64,000 nt of DNA from a bacterium (GTDB lineage Bacteria > Deinococcota > Deinococci > Deinococcales > Deinococcaceae): NCBI GenBank assembly GCA_021810505.1, contig JAJZIR010000008.1, forward strand, positions 1,471-65,470. The letters are read 5' to 3'. Position 1 is the stretch's first letter, and the number at the start of each line of letters is the position of its first letter. The notes under the pieces were generated by a model. The model was not told where the DNA came from. It worked only from the letters and a program-made list of their open reading frames with translations, and made no database searches. Both the position numbers and the translations under genes were made by a program. Shown one piece after another: positions 24,494-29,165 of this stretch.

Positions 24494-24526
24494 CCGTTCA
24501 AGCTGGCCTTCGGCCCAGCACCTGTA

Positions 24527-24551
24527 CCTGCGGCCAGATTGGCCGCAGGTG
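24527..24551 (+). terminator. Perfect 10-bp stem-loop after the membrane protein gene
   Basis: ACCTGCGGCC-agatt-GGCCGCAGGT begins 33 bases after the stop codon. No T tract follows, but the stem is very stable and the next 1.2 kb hold no gene, so it probably ends or protects the transcript. Confidence 0.6.
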
Positions 24552-25774
24552 ACCCTAGCTACACGCCCCCAGGCAGCCGGCTCAGCGCACCACCTACCGC
24601 GGATACCCGAACAGATCCCCCGAGGCAGGCGCGGCCATCCCGCAAGAGGATCTCGGGCGCAGGAGCATAGGGCAGCTGCGTGCTAGTTCAGGAGAGTGCA
24701 GACTCTCTTCCCTGAAGCAGCTGGATATCGGGGCAGCCGTCCCCCACGTACCGCGCCGGAGCTGCGGGGCCAGTAGTCCTAGCGCGCAACCAGCGAGCGA
24801 GGCTCGCAGGGGCTCGGTACGAGATTTCGGAAAGGAATTTTGCGCAGAGCAGCTAGCTGCCTCAGCTCGACGCTGCGGTGCGGATGACCGCGCCGCAGCG
24901 TCCTTAAGGGACAGCGATGAGCCAGCCGCGCTCAGCCGCCTGACCAGCCCGCTGCCCGAAAGGGCTTCTGGACCTCACCAGCGGGCTCTAGGCCCTGGGT
25001 TCCAGCGCGGGCGGGCCCCCAGGGACCGCCCAACCCGATCGGCCTAGCTCCCGGAAGCCGCAAGCCGAGCGGAAGTTCCTCGCTTCTGCGTGTGGGTAGG
25101 AAGTGGGTGCAGCACCGCCCCCCAAGCAAAGCCCATAACCAAGCTCGCGGTCCGGGATCCGTTGGAAGTCAAGCCGCGCAGCGCGAGATAGGCCGCGCTG
25201 ATGAAGTTCTTCTCGGCGCGGTAGCCGCGTACCCCGGGTTCGGCGGGCTGCAGCAGGCCGCTCGGACCCTTCCAGCTCCGTGAGTGGTAGGGCTACCGAA
25301 CTAGCACAAGATACCGTTCCAACCGTTCACGGTGGCATCAGCGGCCTTGACTATGAGCGGTAATCCGCTCGCCCCCGCTCACTCCGTCCAGCCCTTCGGC
25401 GCAGAAGCTCCCTGATGAGGGCTCCGGGCAGTTTATCCAACCGTGCTCAGGGTTCTTCCCAGCGCCCACTTGCTGCCTCTGGGGCCAAAGGAGTGGTCGG
25501 GTATGGTCTCTCGGGGCGGCGCGCCAGCCTCTCGCTGCAACCCAAGTCCGACGACATGGCTATAGCCGACTTGGCCGTCGCGCCCACCGGACCCTGCTCT
25601 CTCCGGGAGGCCCCCGGGCAGGGGCTGGGATCGCCCGAAACGAGCTCCGCTGGGAGAAATGGCAAGGTTGAGACTGGGCAGCGAGCGAGGGTCACACCCG
25701 GATCGGTGGTGCGCGCACAGCGGGTGACTGCACCGCTAACCTGATATCCCGAATCAGGATCCTGCAGGCGGCCT
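24552..25774. other. 1.2-kb gene-free region with strong hairpins
   Basis: No reading frame in this stretch carries family similarity and base use is not codon-like. It holds a 34-base hairpin at 24869-24902 (GACGCTGCGG, a T.G wobble, GCGG, loop ATGA, then the complements, 15 paired positions), a bulged one at 24687-24716 (TTCAGG outer arms, GAGAGT inner arm), and GGGCGG/CCGCCC near 25010-25030. The minus strand around 25100-25250 reads as a short protein-like run (RGYRAEKNFISAAYLAL) that may be the relic of a lost gene. Conserved motifs of RNase P RNA and tmRNA were looked for and not found. Confidence 0.5.
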
Positions 25775-26740: not shown

Positions 26741-26835
26741 GGTGTCCCTTCCCTACTTGAGTTGATGCGCGCGAAGCTGAGCGAGAAAACCTTGTAATCG
26801 CCGATCAACCGGTCGCGAAACTCGAAGATGTCCAT
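26737..26835 (-). pseudogene. Probable N-terminal stub of a large DEAD/DEAH-box helicase gene
   Basis: A 32-codon frame with a GGAGG ribosome site. Its first residues, MDIFEFRDRLIGDYKVFSLS, resemble the conserved opening of large DEAD/DEAH (DUF1998-type) helicases, roughly FxLRDRLIxDYxxYxxSFxxI, as I remember it. The similarity ends after about 27 residues and a stop follows just before the GNAT start. A deletion that removed the helicase body is the simplest reading. A perfect TATAAT lies at 26879-26884 upstream on the same strand. It could also be an unrelated small peptide. Confidence 0.4.
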
Positions 26836-27203
26836 GCTCTCAATCCTCCAGCGAGGCCGGTCACAGTGCCTGGGCGGCATTATAAGGCAAGGCGGAAGGC
26901 CGTCTCCAGGATGGGAGCAAGGTATCCGGGTGCAGCAGCGCAGCTCTTGGCTGCCGGGTATTTTCCCGTACTGGAGTTCCAACCCATCGGTGGGGACGGA
27001 AGCAGTAGCCCGCCACCGCGGGTCGCCGGTTCGGGCGCTCGGGTTGGGTAAGGCAGGGCGGTGTATTCCGGTGGGCAGCGCCTACTGCTGGGCGCAGCGG
27101 CTGGCCAGGAACCAGTAGGTCTGGCGGGTAAGGGAGGTGCAGTTCTGAGTCCGGCTCAGCCCTCTTCTCACGTATTCCCTACACTTCTTATGAGTAGTTC
27201 TTC
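26836..27203. other. Gene-free stretch before the GloVer gene
   Basis: Apart from the minus-strand TATAAT at 26879-26884 nothing was recognised here: no gene with family features, no RNA, no repeat. It is the upstream region of both the helicase stub and the GloVer-repeat gene. Confidence 0.45.
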
Positions 27204-27209
27204 TAGTTT
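27204..27209 (+). promoter_or_regulatory. -10 box TAGTTT for the GloVer gene
   Basis: TAGTTT lies five bases before the ATG at 27215 with no Shine-Dalgarno sequence, the same leaderless arrangement as intact genes in this window. It supports 27215 as the original start even though the frame is interrupted. Confidence 0.5.
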
Positions 27210-27214
27210 ACGCT

Positions 27215-28798
27215 ATGAAAACCAGCTTAGCCAGCTGTTTGGCTGGAGCTGCCCTGATCCTGGTCGGATGCAGCTAGGGGGGAGCCCCCGCTCCCAACCA
27301 CCAGAGCAGTTCGGCCCTGTCCTTGAGCGGAGCTGCGGCCCTCTCGGTCCAGCAGGGGAGCAGCGGGAAGGAGACCCTCAGCTTGAGCAGCCAGAGCTTG
27401 AGCGGGACCGTGCAGCTGAGCTACCGAGTCAGCGAGGGAGGGGCCGCGCTCCCTAGCTCGGCTTTCAGCTTCAGCCCTAGCAGCGTGACCCTCTCCGCTG
27501 GGAAGGCTGTGCAGGTTCCCTTGACCGTAAAGACTCCTTCCAGCCTGGCCGGCCACGATCAGGTGCAGGTGACCGCTAGCTTATCGGGGGCGAGCGCTTC
27601 AGCGACCTTCCCCCTCACGGTGACCGGGGAGCAGGTGATCTACAGCTTTCAGGGCGGGAGTGACGGCGCCAACCCCGAGGCCGCCCTGGTCCTCGGCAGC
27701 AACGGGGACCTGTACGGGACGACGGAGCTTGGTGGCGCTTCTAGTAAAGGCACTGTCTTCCAGCTCTCGCCTCCCGCTTCCCCTGGGAGCAGCTGGACCG
27801 AGACGGTGCTGCACAACTTTGGGAGTGGGAGTGACGGCGCTGATCCCAAAGCCTCTCTGGTCCTCGGCAGCAACGGGGACCTGTATGGGACGACGGAGCG
27901 TGGCGGCACTTCTAATCTTGGTACCGTCTTCCAGCTCTCACCCTCTACCACTGGGAACGGCTGGACCGAGACGGTGCTGTACAGATTTAAGGGTGGGACA
28001 ACCGACGGCGCCCTCCCCTACGCCCCCCTGATCTTCGGCAGCAACAGGGAGCTATACGGGACGACGGCGTATGACGGCGCTTCTGGTGGCGGCACCGTCT
28101 TCCAGCTCTCGCCTCCGGCCTCCCCTGGGAGCAGCTGGACCGAGACGGTGCTGCACAACTTTGGGAGTGGGAGTGACGGCGCTAATCCCTTTGCTCCCCT
28201 GATCCTCGGCAGCAACGGGGACCTGTACGGGACGACGGCGTATGGCGGCGGCACTTCTAATGACGGCACCGTCTTCCAGCTCGCACCCTCTACCACTGGG
28301 AACGGCTGGACCGAGACGGTGCTGTACAGATTTAAGGGTGGGACAACCGACGGCGCCCTCCCCTACGCCCCCCTGATCTTCGGCAGCGGGGACCTGTACG
28401 GGACGACGTATGGTGGCGGCACTTCTAGTGTCGGCACCGTCTTCCAGCTCGCACCCTCTACCACTGGAGGTAGCTGGACCGAGACGGTGCTGTACAGCTT
28501 TAAGGGTGGGACGACCGACGGCGCCAACCCCGCTGCCGCCCTGATCCTCGGCAGCGGGGACCTGTACGGGACGACGTATGGTGGCGGCACTTCTAGTGTC
28601 GGCACCGTCTTCCAGCTCGCACCTTCTACCACTGGAGGTAGCTGGACCGAGACGGTGCTGCACAGCTTTGGAGGTACCGGTGACGGCGCTCATCCCTTTG
28701 CTCCCCTGATCCTCGGCAGCAACGGGGACCTGTACGGGACGACGGCGTATGGCGGCGGCACTTCTAATGACGGCACCGTCTTCAAGATTGTCCTCTGA
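27215..28798 (+). pseudogene. GloVer-repeat lipoprotein with an in-frame amber codon after the lipobox
   Basis: From the ATG the frame reads MKTSLASCLAGAALILVGCS, a lipoprotein signal with lipobox LVGC, then TAG at 27275-27277, then continues in the same frame for over 500 codons. The part after the stop has a linker, a beta-rich domain (about 27300-27630, with LSSQSLSGTVQLSYRVSEGG) and seven tandem GloVer-type repeats (YGTT, GTVFQL, WTETVL landmarks). A single CAG-to-TAG change would explain the break, and GCSQGGAP would be a normal lipoprotein junction. Either the gene is dead, the amber codon is read through, translation restarts at the TTG at 27323 without a signal peptide, or the base is a sequencing error. 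GloVer proteins are cell-surface or secreted with no known reaction. Confidence 0.7.
27634..28798 (+). repeat. Seven tandem GloVer protein repeats, about 170-190 bp each
   Basis: Each unit has the pattern GDLYGTT, a Gly-rich turn, GTVFQL, a Ser/Pro linker, WTETVLYxFKGG, then LIxG. Two central units (about 28385-28555 and 28555-28690) are nearly identical in DNA, and two longer blocks (27900-28080 and 28235-28385) also match closely, which indicates recent duplication or gene conversion inside the gene. Confidence 0.85.
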
Positions 28799-29027
28799 TC
28801 TGGCTGACCCGGCCGGACACCAGTAGGGTAAGGACTCGGATAGAGTGGCCGGGAGCGTGGGTTTGAATTGAGTGCGCAGGAGGGACCTCCGGCCGCCTTC
28901 GGTGCCAGGTGCCCACCGTGGTGCGTTGGAGTTGCGCGCGCTGGGACTCCCGGGGTCAGGGACCGGGAGCCGGACCGCCGGGGAGTTCCTGCGGGGAGCT
29001 AGGTCTAGACCGGTGTGGTGCTCTTGC

Positions 29028-29136
29028 AACTTCAGGAGTGGGAGTGACAGCGCTGAGCCCGTTGCTCCCCTGACCCTCGGCAGCAATAGGGAGCGGCGAT
29101 TCCGGTGGCGGCACCGCCTTCAAGATCGTTCTCTGA
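29028..29136 (+). pseudogene. Decayed remnant of a second GloVer repeat gene
   Basis: The DNA again encodes the repeat landmarks: NFRSGSDSAEPVAPLTLGSN at the start, and in a shifted frame SGGGTAFKIVL with a stop at 29134-29136, matching the last repeat of the intact gene. A deletion and a frameshift around 29090 break it. It lies 230 bases after the main gene, so a tandem copy was probably lost. Confidence 0.7.
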
Positions 29137-29165
29137 TCCAGCTCAAGATCGTTCTCTGATCCAGC
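29120..29165 (+). repeat. 23-bp exact tandem repeat at the end of the GloVer remnant
   Basis: The 23 bases 29120-29142 are repeated at 29143-29165. The unit covers the codons for the last residues and stop of the remnant, so slippage or end-duplication happened after it decayed. Confidence 0.85.

Follow-up and report, generated by a model that had tools for sequence, protein, structure and literature searches.

The DNA analysed here is a stretch of 64,000 nucleotides (the window), which carries a gene for a lipoprotein of the GloVer family at 27215-28798 on the forward strand. We call this gene, which lies on contig C2, copy A. From the ATG at 27215 to position 27274 it encodes a lipoprotein signal, MKTSLASCLAGAALILVGCS, with the lipobox LVGC, as seen by translation and by comparison with its paralogues. 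An in-frame TAG (27275-27277) stands directly behind this signal and is the single internal stop of the frame, which reads MKTSLASCLAGAALILVGCS, stop, and then GGAPAPNHQ and onwards. On the same strand, 506 open codons follow (27278-28795) before a TGA (28796-28798) closes the GloVer frame. Translation, profile search and a structural model place in these codons a region read as an Ig-like sandwich (about 27320-27646) and then seven GloVer repeats (about 27647-28795). The start, the LVGCS signal, the TAG and the more than 500 open codons had been described in the initial annotation, and translation confirms them all. A bacterial lipoprotein has a signal peptide with the lipobox [LVI][ASTVI][GAS]C and, behind it, a mature chain. 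Copy A does have MKTSLASCLAGAALILVGC, but its chain ends one residue past the lipobox cysteine; the paralogue chains run on. The annotation had also credited the gene with a good promoter. Upstream of copy A, a sigma-70 consensus scan found none, but the 5' flank is kept between copy A and two paralogues (B and C, below), so that some promoter is plausible. A restart of translation behind the TAG was considered and rejected: the earliest possible start is a TTG at 27323, which has no signal peptide.

What would the frame behind the stop encode? Against TIGR03803, the GloVer family model, the body of copy A scores 265.6 bits in seven stretches, well above the curated cut-off of 44 bits. An AlphaFold2 model of the post-stop body, built with 16 sequences, is confident (pLDDT 88.5, pTM 0.87). 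Residues 15-123 of this model form an all-beta domain, which we read as an Ig-like sandwich, and repeated strands in seven units come after it. In the PDB the model resembles mainly beta-propellers and folds akin to them, and no match exceeds a TM-score of about 0.5 over the query. From the repeats together with the model, we predict that the seven repeats of copy A form a seven-blade beta-propeller. The protein shares with other TIGR03803 proteins the seven repeats over the family model, with their YGTT..GG....GTVF core. It differs from them in that a lipoprotein signal and the putative Ig-like domain precede the propeller, and in that the copy of the window and one on contig C8 have an in-frame TAG after the lipobox. 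In a contig scan, distant relatives appeared in metagenome-assembled genomes of Acidobacteriota, Verrucomicrobiota, Proteobacteria and Bacteroidota, and a few plasmids carry relatives too; the protein had no match in any of 40 related genomes, and an exact-pattern scan of viral contigs for the gene found nothing. This genome probably gained its GloVer family by horizontal transfer, with multiplication of the gene afterwards. A literature search on GloVer gave no usable paper.

In fact, copy A is one of eight GloVer loci (A-H) that are spread over five contigs of the genome (G000; 2.31 Mb in 26 contigs, 97.85% complete). The RpoB of this genome is matched best by polymerase chains of the Thermus type (885 bits, against 718 for the next group), which probably places the lineage in the Deinococcota. 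Copy B (C8:331.8k), with seven repeats, shares both the signal and the TAG of copy A. At the position of the stop, copies C (C23, four repeats), D (C22, seven repeats, open frame) and G (C17:44.4k, at least six repeats and an N gap) have CAG, and copy E (C17:90.4k, seven repeats, open frame) has CAA. Copies F (C8:337.4k, two repeats) and H (C17:73.5k, four repeats) have lost their 5' ends. Thus, the four other paralogues whose 5' end is intact all have a glutamine codon at the position, and a CAG to TAG change is likely to have been the original event; the one-base change proposed in the initial annotation is supported by the CAG of C, D and G and the CAA of E. A sense codon at this position in intact homologues is what marks a nonsense pseudogene, and C, D, G and E supply it. 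Copies D and E look intact and G is probably intact too, its integrity being uncertain because about 100 N lie within it (stretch L091, G000:C17:40500-46500); the assembly probably broke at repeats inside this copy. By contrast with these copies, every one of the five members of a young sub-family carries a lesion, namely the stop in A and B, the presence of only four of seven blades in C, and the loss of the 5' end in F and H. Two further observations concern the surroundings of these loci: a DUF3800 gene lies between an SBP_bac_5 gene and the truncated copy F (L088:10599-11336), and a long, internally repeated open stretch lies just before copy H (L092, about C17:71.5-73.0k).

Could the UAG be read as a sense codon? 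A genome that recodes UAG should have a CUA tRNA, should rarely or never use TAG as a stop and should have lost RF1. The suppressor tRNA that the initial annotation had suggested looking for was not found in this assembly: none of the 44 tRNA places typed (97.85% completeness) has a CUA anticodon. RF1 is present as a PrfA-like protein whose 387 bits fall slightly short of the equivalog cut-off, together with a second release factor of 249 bits. Of 52 long open reading frames of the window, a set chosen by length and not a curated gene set, 9 have TAG as their stop. We therefore rejected a recoded TAG or a suppressor tRNA. A related explanation is that readthrough is programmed or suppressed, with UAG read at some rate so that the stop sets a low level of the full-length lipoprotein. 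It gains from the frame being open after the stop in both A and B, from glutamine being the paralogue residue and from the presence of near-cognate glutamine tRNAs (CUG and UUG anticodons), which are the usual misreaders of UAG; ordinary misreading by them would yield trace product only. The same tRNA set, RF1 and everyday use of TAG as a stop weigh against this explanation, as does the recent history of the surrounding DNA (below), in the light of which the openness of the frame needs no selection, and we give it a very slim chance.

This history becomes apparent when A and B are aligned. A block of 726 bp (27073-27798, forward strand), which holds the 5' flank, the signal, the TAG, the Ig-like region and the first repeat, is base for base identical to copy B on contig C8. 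The two copies differ at 0 of 726 positions within the block, as against 194 of 987 (about 20%) beyond it (Fisher p = 5e-51), and so sharp an edge argues that the block was shared recently. The unlike divergence of block and body also implies that the TAG and the body behind it had not travelled together for long. Beyond the block, most pieces of copy A are closest to C or H and not to B, and its 3' end with the downstream flank (28780-29001, forward strand) is 89% like H, 86% like C and only partly like B. Copy A thus looks like a chimera, B-like in its 5' part and C/H-like in its 3' part, and the bodies and the stop would have separate histories. Downstream of the TGA, at 29027-29141 on the forward strand, sequence comparison reveals a decayed fragment of a further GloVer repeat, a trace of an older or longer copy.

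Upstream, two remnants suggest that the locus of the window derives from a B-like locus. The first (26762-26910, reverse strand) is the 5' end of a helicase gene of the DEAD-box/MrfA type, 92% identical over 149 bp to the gene beside copy B; that gene is intact and encodes 1737 aa with DEAD, Helicase_C and MrfA Zn-binding domains (L088:8-5221). The second is a 95-bp stretch (25559-25653, forward strand) that matches, at 89% identity, the sequence immediately upstream of the block in B and is displaced by 1.4 kb; it sits in about 1.3 kb (24494-25774) that has no open reading frame of at least 150 codons. The helicase remnant has diverged by 8% and the block not at all, so that the last transfer of the block may have gone in either direction.

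An exact repeat of this size also raises the question of whether the TAG is real. A sequencing or assembly artefact would mean either a wrong base or a single consensus written into both repeat copies, and exact repeats of 726 bp can indeed receive one shared consensus, in an assembly of 26 contigs in which a GloVer copy is interrupted by one or more N gaps. The TAG is nevertheless found at two loci with unique flanks, and copy C, which is 89% alike over 128 bp here, was kept apart with CAG. A base error was set aside as the main reading since the second locus, copy B on C8, has the identical TAG, and an artefact has scarcely any chance of being the explanation: the codon is in all likelihood a real stop. 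An artefact in both copies is unlikely; it is possible that only one real copy has the TAG, which would give one stop-bearing copy and leave the interpretation as a pseudogene unchanged.

Does the open frame behind the stop bear witness to its use? Beyond the block, dN/dS between A and B is 0.74, and most pairs in the young group, whether or not they include a stop-bearing copy, lie at 0.60-0.76 (C-F 0.61, C-H 0.76); A-H, at 0.38, is an exception inside the group. For C, D, E and G compared with one another, the value is 0.29-0.34 in most pairs. These values fit a relaxed constraint in the young group, although small counts and the shuffling of the copies make the test weak. As a proof of translation dN/dS was discarded, because the A-B value resembles those of C-F and C-H and so has no power. 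The open frame fared no better as a proof that UAG is read, given that the stop arrived in at least one of the two frames only after most of their shaping was over. Since the block was shared recently, an open frame needs no selection and argues only weakly for use; the TAG-bearing 5' block met its separately evolved bodies too short a time ago for decay to show.

The initial annotation had gone further and proposed that the neat position of the TAG would make it a switch between a 20-residue lipopeptide and the full surface protein if the codon is suppressed or phase-varied. The position is mildly unusual, though judged after the fact: of the single-base steps that could turn a codon of copy A into a stop, about 2% fall in codons 20-23, and codon 21 is the earliest at which a transition can do so. 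The switch itself finds no support in a genome in which no UAG-reading tRNA was found, RF1 is present and the window uses TAG routinely as a stop, or in a sub-family full of lesions.

A switch could also operate at the level of DNA, in a recombinational on/off or cassette system in which A and B are silent stores. Conversion with CAG copies, C in particular, would then switch on the frame or shuffle modules of the propeller into a copy that is expressed. A, B and C do have exact tracts of 584, 216 and 86 bp in common within their open reading frames, modules are shuffled in frame, and the promoterless, 5'-truncated F and H recall the silent copies of the Mycoplasma vsa and M. synoviae systems (PMC4534519). 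The family likewise resembles Borrelia vls, Anaplasma msp2 and Mycoplasma vsa (PMC4534519) in being a repeat-rich family of lipoproteins or surface proteins with full and promoterless copies and segmental exchange, but differs from them in having no single expression site, cassette array or sign of switching. Silent cassettes are defined by one expression site and a set of donors, whereas the eight copies here are scattered over five contigs with no array around one site. In at least four of them the 5' end is intact and the codon open, and C, the supposed expressed partner, has no more than four blades. The analysis showed neither a dedicated recombination sequence nor, in this single assembly, any sign of switching. 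We judge such a system improbable, and give only a slim chance to the more specific proposal that the lipoprotein family is phase-varied, with 5' TAG and CAG blocks moving between loci by gene conversion and so deciding whether a lipid stub or a seven-blade surface propeller is made.

To explain these results we propose, as by far the most probable interpretation, that A and B are two recently inactivated GloVer duplicates across which the stop was spread by recombination, and not a controlled switch. A single CAG to TAG change would have arisen once in a 5' segment comprising the 5' flank, the signal peptide, the Ig-like domain and the first blade. Recombination between repeat-rich copies would then have put this segment at two loci, before seven-blade bodies that had evolved separately. 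We infer the order, date and direction of these events; for the spread itself, the evidence is the exact block found at two loci together with the chimeric 3' part. Copy A would be transcribed, to judge by its retained 5' flank, and its translation would initiate at the ATG at 27215, as the paralogues suggest, and terminate at 27275, as expected by the standard code. The product would be the 20-residue signal peptide, leaving a lipidated stub of at most two residues (Cys-Ser). The propeller would be made only by ordinary low-level readthrough, and the surface propeller and its function would be lost.

Several features speak against decay. The bodies of A and B are open over more than 500 codons and are predicted to be complete seven-blade propellers, with a confidently modelled fold; the 5' flank is retained and the TAG stands exactly after the lipobox in both copies. 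Values of dN/dS are below 1, and the mixed values of the young group, A-H among them, do not set A and B apart from C. Feng et al. 2022 (cited in PMC11078800) reportedly found low protein amounts from some bacterial pseudogenes. A and B resemble duplicated premature-stop pseudogenes as defined in PMC11078800 in that the 5' flank is retained and there is little decay apart from one nonsense change; the difference is that here one stop is found at two loci through recombinational sharing of the 5' block.

Were the switching true, it would provide a simple conversion-driven on/off mechanism, and to our knowledge none is known in this lineage. In our best reading, the case is instead one of genes decaying in the ordinary way, within a family whose copies are rich in repeats. 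A stop that seems meaningful, being perfectly placed, present in two copies and followed by an open frame, can come from one nonsense change and recombination between paralogues. Thus, where the surrounding DNA was shared recently, an intact downstream frame is no proof of recoding.
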